From positions 183,736 through 247,735 of the forward strand of contig JAHKLZ010000005.1 of NCBI GenBank assembly GCA_020854775.1: a stretch of 64,000 nucleotides of DNA, read 5' to 3'. Every line of letters begins with the position of its first letter. Within the stretch, counting starts at the first letter, position 1. The notes beneath the pieces were generated by a model. The model did no database searches, was not told the DNA's origin, and was given only the letters and a program-made list of their open reading frames with translations. The stretch is from Candidatus Woesearchaeota archaeon. Lineage in GTDB: Archaea; Nanobdellota; Nanobdellia; Woesearchaeales; 21-14-0-10-32-9. This document shows, piece after piece, positions 14,594 through 57,091 of the stretch. The position numbers were made by a program, and so were the translations under genes.

Positions 14594-15337
14594 ATGTCAA
14601 AATTAAATAATGTCAAAATTAATTTTTTTCATAAATTAGGAGAATATTTACACAATGCATCTTTTAAAGCAAATACACATGCTAGAAAATTAGACGCATA
14701 CTCTGAACAAGAGTTTAATGCCGTTGCGATTCCAGGTTTGCCTGCAGGAGCATCTGTGGAAGCATATGAAAATTTTATGCAAATTTTGCCTAACTTAAAC
14801 ACTTATATAACTCCTCAAGGAAAATACCCCATTAATAATTCTGGAAAATCATTTTATTTAAAATTTAATGTTACAAACATACCTTTAGTTATTGGTAATT
14901 TTGCAATTCCTGATAAAGAACCTCCTCTAAAAGAAAATGTGTTTGGACATTCTAAAAATATTACTTTGAAATCCTCAAATCATGCTTTGCAAGAAATGTC
15001 TAGCGGTATGGATGGTGCTTATTTAGATTTAGTTAAAGAAAAATCGCTTTTTGATTTAGAAGAAATTGTGTTTGAGCCTCTGTTTGGAAAACCTATGAAA
15101 AATCCATTAGTCATTTTTTCAAAAAATAAAAGTGTTTTTTTATATAAATCAATTAATCAAATAGAAAAGGAATTAGAGCATCCTAATTTAATATCTTCAA
15201 ATCACATCCCTTTCTATTTGCATCATTTTTTAAATGACGTTGCAAAAGATATGCGTGAAAATATTTTTAGTTATAACACTGTGAAATTTCTTGATTTGAA
15301 TACGAATATATTGTCTAGTTATAAATCAAAAAAATAA
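14594..15337 (+). CDS. hypothetical protein, 247 aa, atypical codon use
   Basis: A strong AGGAGGAG ribosome-binding site precedes the ATG, and a TTTATAAG box lies farther upstream. The soluble protein has no family motif I recognise; it carries AIPGLPAGASVEAYENFM at about 51-68 and a His-containing segment (HIPFYLHHFLND) near the end. Its codons favour A in third position (AAA, TTA, GCA, ACA), unlike other plus-strand genes here, which favour T. That points to recent arrival or inversion. It lies upstream of a broken acetyltransferase gene and may have come with it. Confidence 0.65.
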   Translation: MSKLNNVKINFFHKLGEYLHNASFKANTHARKLDAYSEQEFNAVAIPGLPAGASVEAYENFMQILPNLNTYITPQGKYPINNSGKSFYLKFNVTNIPLVIGNFAIPDKEPPLKENVFGHSKNITLKSSNHALQEMSSGMDGAYLDLVKEKSLFDLEEIVFEPLFGKPMKNPLVIFSKNKSVFLYKSINQIEKELEHPNLISSNHIPFYLHHFLNDVAKDMRENIFSYNTVKFLDLNTNILSSYKSKK

Positions 15338-24252: not shown

Positions 24253-24690
24253 TTATTCACATAGTTCTAGTTTTGCTTGTGTTTCTATTTTGATGTTGTT
24301 TTGTTCTGCTAGTCCCGCGTTTATTTCTAGTGTGTATAGTGCTTCCGTGGTTGGTGCGTATATCTTGCATGGTTCTTCTTCGCAAGGCGTGGCTGTTTGT
24401 ATGTATACTACTTCTAGGTCTTCGTTTAGCCATATCATGTCTAAAGGTATTAATGTGTTTTTCATCCAGAAGGCGTGTTTTTGTTGTGTGTTGAATATGA
24501 ATAGCATTCCTTGGTTTTCTTGTAGGTGTTCTCTGAACATTAGTCCTTGTTGTTTTTCTTCTTGTGTTCTTGGTATTTCTATTTCGTAGCAGGTTTCTTC
24601 AAAGCAAATTGTTGGTTCGCATTGTTGTGTTTGTGTGCAACTTATTATGAAGAATGTTATTATGAGTAAAAGCGTTGTTTTTGTTTTCAT
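24253..24690 (-). CDS. DUF192-family lipoprotein
   Basis: The 145-residue product starts with a hydrophobic signal ending FFIISC, a lipobox with Cys18. It continues with the DUF192 pattern: EIEIPRTQEEKQQGLMFREHL, FIFNTQQKHAFWMKNTLIPLDMIWL, then an EINAGLAE stretch. DUF192 proteins are small extracytoplasmic beta-barrel domains of unclear function. The presence of LspA elsewhere in this window makes true lipoprotein processing credible. Its ATG overlaps the stop of the preceding membrane gene by 4 nt. Confidence 0.85.
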   Translation of the reverse strand: MKTKTTLLLIITFFIISCTQTQQCEPTICFEETCYEIEIPRTQEEKQQGLMFREHLQENQGMLFIFNTQQKHAFWMKNTLIPLDMIWLNEDLEVVYIQTATPCEEEPCKIYAPTTEALYTLEINAGLAEQNNIKIETQAKLELCE

Positions 24691-25529
24691 TGTTTTTTTT
24701 CTTCTAGTTCTTTTCTTATTGTTTCGCAGAATTCTTGCATTCCTTTATAGTATAGTTCTACGGGGTCAGCGTCGTTTTTCATTAGTACTTCTAGTATTGT
24801 GTCTTTTCCTTCTTTGTCTCTGTCCAAGTTTTTTAGGTCTTGTAGTTGTTTTTTTGTTAGGACTTGGTTTTCTGGTTTTTTTAAGTTTTTTAAGTGAGAT
24901 TCTATTTTTTCTATGATTGTGAATAGTCTTTTCGTGTCGGTTTTTTCTTCGTTTTGTAGTGCTTCTGATAATTCGTTGTACCAATCAGGTTTTAGATTTA
25001 TTGATTTTCTTAGTTCTTGTGTTCCTCCGTGGTATTTATTATAGACTCTTCCTATTACGAAGTTTAGTGCTTTGCTTTTTTCTTCTATTGACGCTATGTA
25101 TTCTTGGATGTTTTGTTCTTTTAGTTGTACTGGTTTTTGTTCTTTTGTTTGTTTTGGTTTTTTCCTTGTTATTCTTATTATTGTGAAGAACATCGTTAAG
25201 TACAACACTGAGTATATTATATTTATTGATGTTAAGGTTGCTACGTCCATGTTATAGTTCATGTATTCGTAATTTGTTCCTATTAAGAAGAATGATCCTG
25301 TTATTATTAGTGGTATGAACCATATTGTTATTTTGTGATGGAATGATTCTTCGTATAATACTAAGCTTAGTATTATTGTTATTAAAGATGGTAGAAATCC
25401 TATTACTACGAAGAGTAATGGTGAATTCGTGCTGAACGCTGATATTATTATTATTGCTAATAGAATCAGTATAGAGAATATTGAGAATCCTTCAAATAGT
25501 ATTTTGTTTTGTCTGTTGACTATCTCCAT
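24687..25529 (-). CDS. membrane protein with charged cytosolic domain
   Basis: The 280-residue protein has about four transmembrane helices in its first 120 residues, with a Glu-Glu-Ser-Phe-His-His loop, then a long charged, helical C-terminal domain (IQEYIASIEEKSKALNF, later SHLKNLKKPENQVLTKKQL). No family is recognised. It is co-directional with the DUF192 lipoprotein and overlaps it, implying a shared surface or envelope task. Confidence 0.65.
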   Translation of the reverse strand: MEIVNRQNKILFEGFSIFSILILLAIIIISAFSTNSPLLFVVIGFLPSLITIILSLVLYEESFHHKITIWFIPLIITGSFFLIGTNYEYMNYNMDVATLTSINIIYSVLYLTMFFTIIRITRKKPKQTKEQKPVQLKEQNIQEYIASIEEKSKALNFVIGRVYNKYHGGTQELRKSINLKPDWYNELSEALQNEEKTDTKRLFTIIEKIESHLKNLKKPENQVLTKKQLQDLKNLDRDKEGKDTILEVLMKNDADPVELYYKGMQEFCETIRKELEEKKQ

Positions 25530-52312: not shown

Positions 52313-52401
52313 AATTCCCGGTTGGGTAAGAATGGGCTCCCAGAGTTCTGAAGGGGAGGGTGGTTAGAATTGTTCTAGGAGCCCCTTTAAATTTTATTTT
52401 T
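52313..52401 (+). ncRNA. candidate small RNA with G-rich hairpin loop
   Basis: TTTTTAAATAAGTTATTT (52282-52299) is identical to the box 26-31 nt before the phosphoesterase gene at 56.5 kb, so it may be a promoter. Downstream a stem pairs GGGCTCC (52334-52340) with GGAGCCC (52378-52384). An inner stem pairs AGTTCT (52344-52349) with AGAATT (52366-52371). The loop is GAAGGGGAGGGTGGTT. A T-rich tail follows on the plus strand. No known RNA family is recognised. It could also be a terminator on either strand. Confidence 0.4.
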
Positions 52402-52822
52402 TGGTTTGTTGTTTTATTGTGAATGCTTTTGGTGGTTTTCTCAGTTCTTGTAACCACATTAGTCCGACTTTCATCATGTTTTTGTTTAGTTTTTCGCTTA
52501 ACTTATAGGTTTTTTTGTATAAGTCGTAGTCGATCATTCCCATTGTTTTCATAGGCGTTAGTATTCTATCGTAAAATTGTCTTTTGTTGTATGATATACT
52601 TACTGGTTTTTTTCTTAGTAAAGGTGATTGTTCTTTTGATTCTAGTATTATTCCATCGTGAAGGGCGGTTGCGAACATACTCATTTCAGTTTTTCCGATT
52701 TCTCCTCCTCTCATTTTCATTTCTTCCATTAACATATTTGCTACAATTACTTGTTGGCTCGTCGAAAATATTATTTCGAATATGTTTTCTGGCATGTTAT
52801 ATTGGTCAAATAATATTACCAT
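52394..52822 (-). CDS. hypothetical protein, possible winged helix
   Basis: The 142-residue product has a helical N-terminus (NIFEIIFSTSQQVIVANMLMEEMKMRG), then GKTEMSMFATALHDGIILESK, and a C-terminal half with KRQFYDRILTPMKTMGMIDYDLYKKTYKLSEK, which looks like a recognition helix and wing. AGTGAG precedes the ATG and a TTTATATA box lies upstream. It resembles other DPANN wHTH proteins but no family can be named. Confidence 0.6.
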   Translation of the reverse strand: MVILFDQYNMPENIFEIIFSTSQQVIVANMLMEEMKMRGGEIGKTEMSMFATALHDGIILESKEQSPLLRKKPVSISYNKRQFYDRILTPMKTMGMIDYDLYKKTYKLSEKLNKNMMKVGLMWLQELRKPPKAFTIKQQTKK

Positions 52823-53054: not shown

Positions 53055-53072
53055 AAAAAATCATGATTTTTT
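53055..53072. promoter_or_regulatory. perfect 18-bp palindrome before the PLP/ATP-grasp/M20 operon
   Basis: AAAAAATCATGATTTTTT is perfectly self-complementary and ends 8 nt before TTTATATA (53081-53088). Archaeal repressors and activators commonly bind right next to the TATA/BRE, so this is a good operator candidate. A/T runs alone can form palindromes by chance; the central TCATGA is what makes it notable. Confidence 0.5.
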
Positions 53073-53139
53073 TCAAAAGATTTATATAGATGTTTTATTT
53101 TTCAATAATCATAAAAAATATTAGGGAGATTAACAAAAA

Positions 53140-54114
53140 ATGACTTATGTTGATAATGTTCTAAGTTTGATTGGAAATACACCGATGGTTCCATTGAGAA
53201 AAATATTCTCAGATCAAGGACCTAATATCTTCGGAAAATTAGAATCTTTTAATTTAACTGGTAGCATGAAAGCCAGATCAGCTTTAGGCATGATTGAAGC
53301 CGCAGAAGAAAAAGGTGAATTAAGACCTGGTATGACTATTATAGAATCAACTTCTGGGAATCTAGGTTATGGTCTCGCAGCAATAGGTTCTCAAAAAGGA
53401 TATGAAGTCATATTAGTTATTGATCCTAAAACGGATTCTTTAAAAAGAAATATTCTTCAAGCATATGGCGCTAAATTAATCATTGTAGACAAACCAGATG
53501 AACAAGGCGCGTATCAACCTACTAGGATTCTTAAAGTGCGTGAGTTATTAAATGAAATTCCTAATTCTTGGACTCCTTGTCAATATCATAACGAAGATAA
53601 TTTTCGCGCGCATTATAAATCAACAGGACCTGAAATAATGAATGATTTAGAAGGTAAAGTAGATGTTTTAATTGGCGCTATTGGTACTTGTGGCCACTTA
53701 GGAGGCTCTGCGAAGTACATAAAGGAAAAAAATCCTGATTTAAGAGTTATAGGTATAGAGCCTGAAGGCTCTGTTATTTCAGGAGGGGAATACAAACCTT
53801 ATTTAATTCAAGGCCCTGGTTTAAGTATTATTCCTAAGAATTATGATCCTGATGTTATTTCAGAGATTCATAAAATTAGTGATTCTGATGCTTTTAGAGC
53901 AGCAAGAGATTTAGCTGTTAAAGAATCTATTTTATCAGGAGCTTCCGCAGGAAGTGTTATTCACGCAGCTAAGAATTTGTTTAATACTTTTAAGTCAGGC
54001 TCTAATGTTGTTTTGATTTTAGCCGATGATGGGTTTAGATACGGCACTAATTTTTATGATGATAATTATTTATCAACTCACGGAATTACGCCTTACAAAT
54101 ATTCTAAGGATTAG
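53140..54114 (+). CDS. PLP-dependent beta-synthase (cysteine synthase/SbnA-like)
   Basis: The 324-residue fold-type II enzyme has LTGSMKARSA with PLP lysine K44, STSGNLGYGLA at 70-80 for the substrate carboxylate, GAIGTCGHLGGSAKY for the cofactor phosphate, and SGASAGSVIHAAKNL at 266-280. The SMKARSA motif is closer to SbnA-type enzymes, which join phosphoserine with an amine, than to CysK (SVKDR). It would make a beta-substituted alanine. It starts a three-gene operon whose ATP-grasp gene begins 3 nt downstream. Codons are A-richer than usual on this strand. Confidence 0.88.
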   Translation: MTYVDNVLSLIGNTPMVPLRKIFSDQGPNIFGKLESFNLTGSMKARSALGMIEAAEEKGELRPGMTIIESTSGNLGYGLAAIGSQKGYEVILVIDPKTDSLKRNILQAYGAKLIIVDKPDEQGAYQPTRILKVRELLNEIPNSWTPCQYHNEDNFRAHYKSTGPEIMNDLEGKVDVLIGAIGTCGHLGGSAKYIKEKNPDLRVIGIEPEGSVISGGEYKPYLIQGPGLSIIPKNYDPDVISEIHKISDSDAFRAARDLAVKESILSGASAGSVIHAAKNLFNTFKSGSNVVLILADDGFRYGTNFYDDNYLSTHGITPYKYSKD

Positions 54115-54117
54115 AAA

Positions 54118-55338
54118 ATGAAGACTTATAAATTTAGGGATTTGATAGATGCTGACATAGCTGTTTATGCTGTTGATTTTTTATCTCAACCAGATACCAC
54201 TCTTGTTAAAAGAAAGCCTTTTGTTTCTAAAAAAACTGAAAGAGTTTTACCAATGGCTAAAACTTCAGACATAGTCATTGTGACTGAATCAGTTAATAAG
54301 CAATATTATGAATGGCTTCGTTCTGTTGATTTAGGCACTGATAATATTTTTGAATTAAATGCTTCTAAAGGAACTCCTTTGATGACCGCCATAATTAACA
54401 ACTCTAATATCAATTCTTTAAAAAATTACATTCATAGTTTTTATGGAACTAAAAAATTTGTTCCGTTAATGACTGTTAATGATGAACCTTTGGTTGCGCA
54501 TAGTTTAGATTTGGAATTGTTAGGAGGCAATCCTGTTACCACGCTTAAATATTATAATAAAAGTTCTTTTAAAGAAGTTGTAGCTAAAGCTAATTTGCCT
54601 GTTTTGAGAAGTGAATTAATTTATTCTAATAATGATTTTGATTCTTTGCTTAAAAATTATGTTAATGATTTTGGTTCTTTAATAGTTAAACCTGTTTCTG
54701 CTTCTGCAGGAGGAGATACTTATTTTGTTGATAAAAATAATATTAAAAAAATTGTTTCTTTAATTTCTAATAAAGGTGATTTTTTAGCTGAAGAATATTT
54801 CAATAAAGATTTTGAAACAAATGATCAATGGTTTATTGATAAACGCGGCGATATTTATTTTCTTGGTTTTTCTAAGCAAATCATAGTTAATAATTCTCAT
54901 ATTGGTAATGATTATAGCATTCATAATAAAGATGGTTTGTCTTCTTTAGAATCTTCTTTAGTTGTTGCTAATTTGATGAAAAATGAAGGATATGTTGGTG
55001 TTTTTGGTTTGGATTATTTGCATAATGATTTTTCTCATTTTTTAATTGAGAATAATGCTCGTTTTAATGGATCTACATTTACTAGAGGAATTATTGATAG
55101 AACAGGCAAGGATTTTTCTACTTGGAAAACTCGTGCAATTAAGACTAATCCTATGACTTTTAATGAATTGAAAGATTTAACTAAAGATGTTCTTTATACT
55201 GGTTCTGATGCCGATGCTAGTTTTATTCCTTATGATATTTCTCTTTTAGATACTAATGGTTCTTTTATTGGTTTATTTGTTGGTTCTAATTCTGAATCGA
55301 TAAATTTATTATATAATGATGTGAGTTCAAGATTATGA
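54118..55338 (+). CDS. ATP-grasp ligase of unknown substrate
   Basis: The 406-residue protein has the ATP-grasp pattern: LIVKPVSASAGGDTYFV supplies the lysine and glycine-rich loop, DFLAEEYFNKDF the adenine-side acid, and HFLIENNARFNGSTF the metal-binding E-x-N. The N-terminal 150 residues form its substrate domain. ATP-grasp ligases activate a carboxylate as acyl-phosphate and join it to an amine or thiol. Its position between a PLP synthase and an M20 hydrolase implies it ligates an amino-acid-like product. No match to LysX/ArgX or DdaF motifs is visible to me. Confidence 0.8.
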   Translation: MKTYKFRDLIDADIAVYAVDFLSQPDTTLVKRKPFVSKKTERVLPMAKTSDIVIVTESVNKQYYEWLRSVDLGTDNIFELNASKGTPLMTAIINNSNINSLKNYIHSFYGTKKFVPLMTVNDEPLVAHSLDLELLGGNPVTTLKYYNKSSFKEVVAKANLPVLRSELIYSNNDFDSLLKNYVNDFGSLIVKPVSASAGGDTYFVDKNNIKKIVSLISNKGDFLAEEYFNKDFETNDQWFIDKRGDIYFLGFSKQIIVNNSHIGNDYSIHNKDGLSSLESSLVVANLMKNEGYVGVFGLDYLHNDFSHFLIENNARFNGSTFTRGIIDRTGKDFSTWKTRAIKTNPMTFNELKDLTKDVLYTGSDADASFIPYDISLLDTNGSFIGLFVGSNSESINLLYNDVSSRL

Positions 55339-56459
55339 TTTCGAATATTACTAAGGAAAAAAAAGAATTTTATATTAATTTATTAGCTGAAATAGTTTCT
55401 AAGAAATCCGTGCTGAAAGATGAGTATTTAGTCGCTGATGTTATTAAAGATTTTTTAAATTCTATTAATGTTAGTTATGATGTTCATTTTTTGGATGAGC
55501 AACGTCCTAATGTTATTGCTAAGATTGGTTCTGGTAAGAAAAAGCTTCTTTTAGTTTGTCATATGGATGTTGTTGAAGGTAGTGGCGTGTGGGAGTTTGA
55601 TCCTTTTGTTCTTTCTGAACAAAATGGGAAGCTTATCGGGCGAGGTGTTGCTGATAATAAAGGTCCTTTAGTTTCTTTATTAATTTTAATTGATAGTCTT
55701 AAAAGTGAAAACTTTGATGGTGAATTGCAAATTCTTTTTGCTTCTGATGAGGAAAAAAGTGGTCCTAATGGTTTGAAATATCTTTTACGTGAAGATCTTA
55801 TTCATGCTGATTTTGCTATTGTTGCTGATACCCCTGGTGAGTTTAATAAAATAATGGTTGCTGAAAGAGGTAGTTTAAATGTTGGTGTGATTGCTAAAGG
55901 TAAACAAGTTCATAGCGCTTATACTCATCTAGATGGTGATAATCCTATTGATAAAATGGCTAGTTTTATTGTTAAGCTTTCTAGTTATGAATTGAATCAT
56001 GATCCTCATAAGTATCTTACACCGCCTTCTTTATCTTTTGTTAAAATAAATGGTGGTTTTGCTAATAATGTTGTTCCGAGTGTTTGTGAAGCAACTATTA
56101 ATATTAGGTATGTTGTTAATCAAAGCGTTGATGAAATTCTTTCTGAATTGAAAGATATTGCAGGAGATAATTTTGAATTTAGAGTTAAATCATATACTGT
56201 TCCTTCTGAAGTTAATGAGGATCATGAAAGTATTTCTTTGCTTAGATCTGTTGCTCAAAAACATGGTTTTAATCCTATTCTTACTGGTCTTGATAGTGGA
56301 ACTGATTGTAAGAAACTTGTTCATGCAGGTATTCCTGCTGTTGGTTATTGTTTTCCTAAGGAAGGTGTGGCTCATCAAGTTAATGAGTGGATATGGGAAG
56401 AAGACTTGTTCATTTATGCTGATTTAATGAAAGATTTTGTTATTGAATTTTTTAAATAA
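55335..56459 (+). CDS. M20-family metallohydrolase
   Basis: The 374-residue enzyme has HMDVV at 76-80 and the second zinc site GRGVADNKGP (102-111). FASDEEKSGPNG at 135-146 carries the catalytic Glu. The dimerisation domain follows, then GLDSGTDCKKLVHAG and GVAHQVNEW with the last His. M20 enzymes remove acyl or amino groups, e.g. ArgE, DapE, LysK. It overlaps the ATP-grasp gene by ATGA, so translation is coupled. Possible jobs are deprotection, or trimming of an acyl or peptide tag from the pathway product. Confidence 0.93.
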   Translation: MISNITKEKKEFYINLLAEIVSKKSVLKDEYLVADVIKDFLNSINVSYDVHFLDEQRPNVIAKIGSGKKKLLLVCHMDVVEGSGVWEFDPFVLSEQNGKLIGRGVADNKGPLVSLLILIDSLKSENFDGELQILFASDEEKSGPNGLKYLLREDLIHADFAIVADTPGEFNKIMVAERGSLNVGVIAKGKQVHSAYTHLDGDNPIDKMASFIVKLSSYELNHDPHKYLTPPSLSFVKINGGFANNVVPSVCEATINIRYVVNQSVDEILSELKDIAGDNFEFRVKSYTVPSEVNEDHESISLLRSVAQKHGFNPILTGLDSGTDCKKLVHAGIPAVGYCFPKEGVAHQVNEWIWEEDLFIYADLMKDFVIEFFK

Positions 56460-56503: not shown

Positions 56504-57091
56504 ATGAAAGTTTTATTGTGTTCTGATATTCATAATCCTCGTAAGGATCTTGTTTTGCTTCGTGAGAAATCAGAGGATGTTGACTTCGTTGTTTGTGCGG
56601 GTGACTTCACTAATTGGGGTAGTGGTTTGGTTAGTACTTTGAGGGAGATGAATTCTTGGGGTAAGTCCGTGTTTGTTGTTCATGGTAATCACGAGGATGA
56701 GTCAGAGGTTCGTAGGGTTTGTAAGTCTTTAGAGAACGTTGTTTTTTTTCATAGGGATGTTGTTGATTTTAATGGTTTTCAGTTAGTTGGTTGGGGTGGT
56801 GGTGGTTTTTCTTTGCAGGATAAAGATTTTGAGCGTTTTGTTTCTGGTTTGAATATTAGTGATTTTTCTCGTGTGATTCTTGTGACTCATGCTCCTCCTT
56901 TTGAGACGTGTCTTGATGAAATTCAGAAAGGTGTTTTTGTTGGTAATGATAGTATTAAGAGATTTGTTTTGAGTAGTAAGCCTTTGGTTGTTGTTTCTGG
57001 TCATATTCATGAGACTTCTGGTTTGGTTTGTAATCTTGATGGTGTTCTTCTTATTAATCCCGGGCCTGAGGGTGTAATTGTAGAATTATGA
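56504..57091 (+). CDS. metallophosphoesterase
   Basis: The 195-residue calcineurin-like enzyme has LLCSDIHN, FVVCAGDFTNWG, VVHGNHEDES, LVTHAPPFE and VSGHIHETSG, which provide the two-metal ligands. It belongs to the small YfcE/MJ0936-like group with phosphodiesterase activity. It overlaps the end of the convergent cobalamin adenosyltransferase gene by 6 nt. The natural substrate is unknown. Confidence 0.93.
   Translation: MKVLLCSDIHNPRKDLVLLREKSEDVDFVVCAGDFTNWGSGLVSTLREMNSWGKSVFVVHGNHEDESEVRRVCKSLENVVFFHRDVVDFNGFQLVGWGGGGFSLQDKDFERFVSGLNISDFSRVILVTHAPPFETCLDEIQKGVFVGNDSIKRFVLSSKPLVVVSGHIHETSGLVCNLDGVLLINPGPEGVIVEL

Follow-up and report, generated by a model that had tools for sequence, protein, structure and literature searches.

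Positions 53140-56459 of the DNA analysed here, a 64,000-nucleotide stretch of contig JAHKLZ010000005.1 from a Candidatus Woesearchaeota archaeon (hereafter the window), hold three tightly packed genes on the plus strand, encoding a pyridoxal 5'-phosphate (PLP) enzyme, an ATP-grasp ligase and an M20 metallohydrolase. We propose, with a probability of roughly 55%, that they form an acquired non-ribosomal biosynthetic operon that would make a β-substituted alanine from O-phosphoserine (OPS), ligate it and later cut the amide. This reading explains the data best because the PLP enzyme keeps the equivalents of R132 and Y152 of SbnA, the CysK/CBS sequences form a clade without it, the ligase family matches known ligases by profile, the PLP and ligase genes are linked again in a second genome, bacteria hold parallel arrangements, and the operon is absent from the sampled congeners. 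The genome containing the window (1.18 Mb, 58 contigs) was surveyed by family searches and in selected stretches; it is labelled G000, its congeners G001 and G002, and the other genomes G023, G136 and G093.

The PLP enzyme (53140-54114, plus strand; 324 amino acids (aa) in the list of open reading frames (ORFs)) belongs to the PALP family (E = 5e-65), is of fold type II and was the single PALP protein of the genome in the family search. In SbnA, residues R132, Y152 and S185 select O-phosphoserine (PMC12414870). Alignment with the SbnA reference sequence, which was confirmed as PDB 5d84, showed that the equivalents of R132 (the Arg of the motif QPTRIL) and Y152 are kept both in the window enzyme and in its relative in G023. 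Every aligned sequence of the SbnA type, plasmid-borne ones included, has R132, and none of the CysK/CBS sequences shown has it. Furthermore, the Asn loop of the enzyme, ESTSGNLG, is that of SbnA and differs from EPTSGNTG. In two trees the CysK/CBS rows, 32 and 17 in number, formed one clade without the target (support 99/96 and 100/98), and the enzyme fell below the NCBIfam cut-offs for cysK (259 vs 351) and CBS (295 vs 510) and also well below that for CysM. An ordinary CysK or CBS was rejected on the residues, the trees and the curated cut-offs. The PLP enzyme is an SbnA-type β-substitution enzyme that probably depends on O-phosphoserine; the earlier note had seen this likeness and had named an ordinary CysK as the outcome that would undo it, and the likeness is what was found. 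The enzyme stood as its own lineage, distinct from both the SbnA clade and the clade of bacterial ligase-linked enzymes, in an exact position (88/88) that is not firm. Its K loop, NLTGSMKAR, and a further loop, GTCGHLGG, are specific to the PLP enzymes of the window and G023.

The leading alternative is an operon for cysteine or a low-molecular-weight thiol, in which the PLP enzyme would be an O-phosphoserine sulfhydrylase, the ligase would form a γ-Glu-Cys-like dipeptide and the M20 protein would act as a recycling Cys-dipeptidase. The OPS-type residues also suit OPS sulfhydrylases, an enzyme that is the only PALP protein of its genome would fit such a role, an aminotransferase-V gene is present (assigned at family level only), and LdmS, met again below among the relatives of the ligase, belongs, going by the title of the paper cited for it, to staphylococcal sulfur amino-acid metabolism. 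We nevertheless hold this rival to be unlikely: the aligned sulfhydrylases have an Asn loop of the TSGNTG type, the CysK/CBS clade does not include the window enzyme, and no PALP protein as close was found in the sampled congeners G001 and G002. Far less probable still is a chance union of an ordinary CysK with an ATP-grasp protein and an M20 protein from unrelated pathways. The enzyme does share 43% identity with some CysK proteins, but the active-site residues, the trees and the overlapping reading frames speak against such a union, and the recurrence of the PLP-ligase linkage in G023, which belongs to a different family, contradicts it.

The ligase gene (54118-55338, plus strand; 406 aa) follows after a gap of 3 nt. 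Searched alone, the ligase matched ATP-grasp_3 (E = 1e-4) with 22.8 bits, just below the cut-off of 23.2. Judged from its homologues in G023 (30% identity), G136 (23%) and G093 (22%), the ATP-grasp assignment is firm, and the catalytic and Mg residues E225, D299, E311, N313 and R315 are invariant in the four homologues. The best PDB matches of the ligase-family profile were 7r8p (3.6e-12), which we take to be LdmS in agreement with NCBIfam, BesA (8yi6, 5e-7) and an ATP-grasp peptide ligase (8ynd). NCBIfam names LdmS an Asp-Met ligase and BesA a propargylglycine-Glu ligase; the window ligase was not listed for either model, and its relatives reached ~23 of 475 bits and ~17 of 750 bits, respectively. 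These profile matches relate the protein behind the PLP enzyme to dipeptide and amino-acid ligases, consistent with its first description as an ATP-grasp ligase, and point to an amide (dipeptide) ligase of a divergent ATP-grasp family. The G136 homologue (L007:11279-13935) has a recognisable PreAtp-grasp domain and lies directly after a gene for a DAO-family FAD (flavin adenine dinucleotide) oxidoreductase, with no PLP enzyme there, and the distant homologue in G093 (L089:5352-7571) is convergent with a β-aspartyl-peptidase gene.

The M20 gene (55335-56459, plus strand; 374 aa) overlaps the ligase gene by 4 nt, and the ORF coordinates thus confirm that the three genes overlap or lie 3 nt apart. 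Its product carries both a Peptidase_M20 domain (E = 3e-27) and an M20_dimer domain, and the metal-ligand positions are occupied, so the last gene does encode the M20 metallohydrolase first recognised there, one that resembles DapE and ArgE. In alignments, the motif VADTPG has an Asp in place of the usual DapE/ArgE Glu; Asp at this metal-ligand position is typical of M20 dipeptidases. The protein scored 195.6 bits with TIGR01910 (ArgE/DapE), below the cut-off of 217.6. It is the sole M20 of the window's genome in the family search, and none was found in the congeners G001 and G002.

The M20 protein bears on two further rivals. In a pathway like that of LysW, LysX and LysK, ATP-grasp would charge a carrier protein and M20 would release the product from it. 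ATP-grasp with M20 is indeed the logic of LysX and LysK, and the LysW-lysine hydrolase 5xoy is a weak match to the M20 protein (2e-7); however, its best PDB match, DapE, is far stronger (4e-24), and LysW was not found in G000, G023 or G136 with a model that was positive in four control genomes. A LysW carrier pathway was rejected on this absence and is highly improbable here. In a catabolic or salvage operon, by comparison, M20 would split an imported peptide, the PLP enzyme would act as a lyase or dehydratase on the freed β-substituted alanine, and the ligase would cap or detoxify. M20 hydrolases are mainly degradative and the operon is without an exporter, but the ligase spends ATP on bond formation and the PLP enzyme has kept its OPS-binding residues; we regard this explanation as quite improbable.

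To describe the distribution of the operon, we searched 371 genomes of the phylum and 353 of the order, two draws that overlap. The PLP enzyme was found elsewhere only in G023 (68% identity), and no further carrier was found among 145 relatives of G023. The G023 operon runs in the order PLP enzyme, DUF2334 deacetylase-like protein, ligase, two Amidohydro_2 proteins and a C39-like protein. The earlier note had treated the three families as a set and unlinked neighbours in relatives as a sign against it; the PLP and ligase genes proved to be linked in G023, and the M20 gene was replaced there. The ligase was not found in the ten sampled relatives within the family to which the window belongs (E ≤ 0.001). 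In G001, the homologues of the two flanking genes stand side by side in divergent orientation, separated by ~180 bp and without an insert. This locus is an empty site, in a region that is rearranged and with a phosphoesterase homologue only 38% identical. The absence from sampled congeners and the empty site in G001 support acquisition of the operon, in line with the recent arrival first proposed for it. Scans of viral contigs with both alignments found no relatives, and plasmid searches with either archaeal ligase gave no match. A candidate from the genome-contig scan, L005, was a false positive that came from a short match within an unrelated protein of 700 aa.

In the biosynthetic reading, the PLP enzyme would take O-phospho-L-serine and expel phosphate to give an aminoacrylate, as its active-site residues suggest, and an amine or other nucleophile would then add at the β carbon to give a 2,3-diaminopropionate-type or other β-substituted alanine. 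By homology, the ATP-grasp ligase would convert a carboxylate to its activated acyl phosphate and couple it to an amine, which would place the new amino acid in a dipeptide or similar amide. Third and weakest, M20 may hydrolyse an amide, which would set the active compound free or serve its recycling.

Several observations weigh against this reading. The best score of the PLP enzyme was that with the SbnA model TIGR03945 (311.8 bits), below the cut-off of 349.95; the position of S185 is a Gly, as in several annotated SbnA; and the K loop departs from NPGGSxKDR. A family search did not find SbnB (PF02423) in G000 or G023, so there would be no SbnB to free diaminopropionate. SbnA proper was rejected on the sub-threshold score, the Gly and the missing SbnB. 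The window ligase sequence alone had no match in PDB, AlphaFold run on the ligase alone with no alignment gave a predicted local distance difference test score (pLDDT) of 32, and the likeness of the ligase to characterised enzymes is remote, with only 22-30% identity inside its own family. The operon contains no exporter or serine kinase gene. In addition, G023 keeps the PLP enzyme and the same ligase family in one operon with other hydrolases (DUF2334, Amidohydro_2); the third step is therefore not conserved and 'deprotection' by M20 is a guess. Of the pathway sketched in the earlier note (make, ligate, deprotect), the synthase and ligase parts held up on residues, homology, G023 and bacterial loci, and the M20 part was not supported.

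The archaeal version of this combination of synthase and ligase looks undescribed. A bolder proposal, possible and on balance doubtful, is that it represents a new archaeal dipeptide pathway independent of the bacterial modules of PALP and LAL-type ligase described below, in which a separate lineage of OPS-dependent synthase would have recruited an unrelated ATP-grasp protein and the cassette would spread by horizontal transfer between archaea with small genomes, its hydrolases being interchangeable. If so, the product could be a signal, a metallophore or an inhibitor that is active between the archaeon and either its host or its neighbours. Small-genome archaea of this type are thought to make little outside core molecules, and one would not expect to find in them a compact, acquired set of genes for an unusual amino acid and a product resembling a peptide.

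We also examined the sequence upstream of the operon and its codon composition. An exact 18-bp palindrome, AAAAAATCATGATTTTTT (53055-53072), a candidate operator, ends 8 nt upstream of a putative archaeal TATA box, TTTATATA (53081-53088, plus strand), which has an A-rich stretch resembling a B recognition element (BRE) on its 5' side at 53075-53080. Given this spacing, the palindrome borders the BRE side; it is exact, as had been claimed, and does not abut the TATA box. Among first-order Markov versions of the intergenic region (317 bp, 20% GC), ~2% contained a perfect palindrome of this length, and no second copy was found within the window. The palindrome is real and its significance is weak, and the regulatory meaning first given to it was rejected on these weak statistics and the lack of a repeat. 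A perfect 22-bp palindrome, ATAATACTAAGCTTAGTATTAT, lies at 25355-25376 within the minus-strand ORF 24687-25529. A putative Shine-Dalgarno sequence, GGGAG (53124-53128, plus strand), stands 11 nt 5' of the ATG of the PLP gene.

At third codon positions, A3/(A3+T3) was 0.42 in the PLP gene compared to 0.20 ± 0.10 in 11 other plus-strand genes (range 0.08-0.44). The values of the ligase gene (0.28) and M20 gene (0.25) both lay within one standard deviation of the plus-strand mean. Strand asymmetry at third positions is very strong across the window, with a minus-strand mean of 0.82 against 0.20 in the other plus-strand genes; minus-strand genes are A-rich (0.66-0.95 A of A+T) and plus-strand genes T- and G-rich. 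The PLP gene had been described as A-rich, unlike other plus-strand genes. Its value lies near the upper end of the range but is not unique there, since the plus-strand gene at 14594-15337 is equally extreme, and A-rich codons were therefore rejected as proof of acquisition. The composition fits a recent arrival and proves none. Outside the operon, the left flank gene lies at 52394-52822 on the minus strand, and the right flank gene (56504-57091, plus strand), for a calcineurin-like phosphoesterase, marks the insertion boundary. The DNA is archaeal by its contents, which include an archaeal RNase P and, nearby, genes that encode ribosomal protein S24e and an RNA polymerase subunit resembling Rpb7; judged by how large the genomes of relatives are, the organism is probably a small-genome DPANN archaeon.

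Parallels were found in bacteria. A Kitasatospora plasmid protein (748 aa; L103:2995-5238) fuses an SbnA-like PALP to an LAL-type ATP-grasp ligase; its gene adjoins those for an ArgH-like lyase, a GHMP kinase and a condensation-domain protein. With this fusion as query, 29 plasmid records were found to hold PALP and ATP-grasp together, a record being counted if one place covered at least 80% of the fusion. The neighbours in the loci read were kinases, lyases, non-ribosomal peptide synthetase genes or exporters. Azospirillum, Streptomyces and Sulfuriferula loci contain genes for a kinase, PALP, ATP-grasp, an ArgH-like lyase and an exporter, and in Sinorhizobium ATP-grasp is fused to the lyase. 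Two actinobacterial loci hold ATP-grasp, DUF364 or a DUF364-like protein, PALP, a dipeptide epimerase, an exporter, a methyltransferase and a substrate-binding protein. In the actinobacterial clusters L117:5022-11619 and L118:3992-10292, ATP-grasp and DUF364 (putative heavy-metal chelation) accompany a PALP with MKAR/LKAR and GTGGH motifs, a dipeptide epimerase, an exporter and a substrate-binding protein, and these clusters look like dipeptide metallophore clusters. The target shares the MKAR and GTxGH motifs with the Streptomyces/Rhodococcus DUF364 clusters, but the tree did not place them together. A Priestia plasmid cluster (L104:701-10562) with ATP-grasp (LAL), cysK, serine acetyltransferase, MFS, dihydroorotase-like, dihydroorotate dehydrogenase and pseudouridine glycosidase genes could make a pyrimidine-substituted alanine peptide. 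The plasmid-borne 'cysteine synthases' of cyanobacteria in L100, L106 and L109 have R132 as in SbnA and make up a lineage of their own; the gene after each encodes a protein of 442-449 aa, which is ANKH-like in the two loci from Nostoc.

Among known systems, SbnA of the staphyloferrin B pathway shares fold type II, R132, Y152 and the Asn loop with the window enzyme at 34% identity, and differs in having S185, the K loop NPGGSMKDR, a separate lineage and an SbnB partner. The dapdiamide pathway, with SbnA/SbnB homologues and ATP-grasp ligases, is alike in joining diaminopropionate synthesis to ATP-grasp ligation and unlike in its SbnB homologue, which was not found in the archaeal genome. LdmS and BesA are the best solved relatives of the archaeal ligase-family profile, although the family falls far below the cut-offs of both models. 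DapE and ArgE deacylases share the M20 fold, dimer domain and metal ligands, and DapE entries are the closest in PDB, whereas the window protein differs in its TIGR01910 score and its Asp at VADTPG. In the bacterial modules (Azospirillum, Sulfuriferula, Streptomyces, rhizobia and Kitasatospora), a PALP adjoins or is fused with ATP-grasp as in the archaeal arrangement, and the PALPs of the loci read all carry the R132 equivalent; in contrast, their PALP is of another lineage, an ArgH-like lyase, GHMP kinase and exporter often stand in for M20, and their ligases, which are of the LAL type (ATP-grasp_4, usually with LAL_C2), hardly match the profile of the archaeal ligase family at all. The two systems thus appear to follow the same two-step logic with different ligase families, and this recurrence with a non-orthologous ligase, including a fusion, suggests that ATP-grasp ligases have been recruited repeatedly to phosphoserine-dependent synthases.

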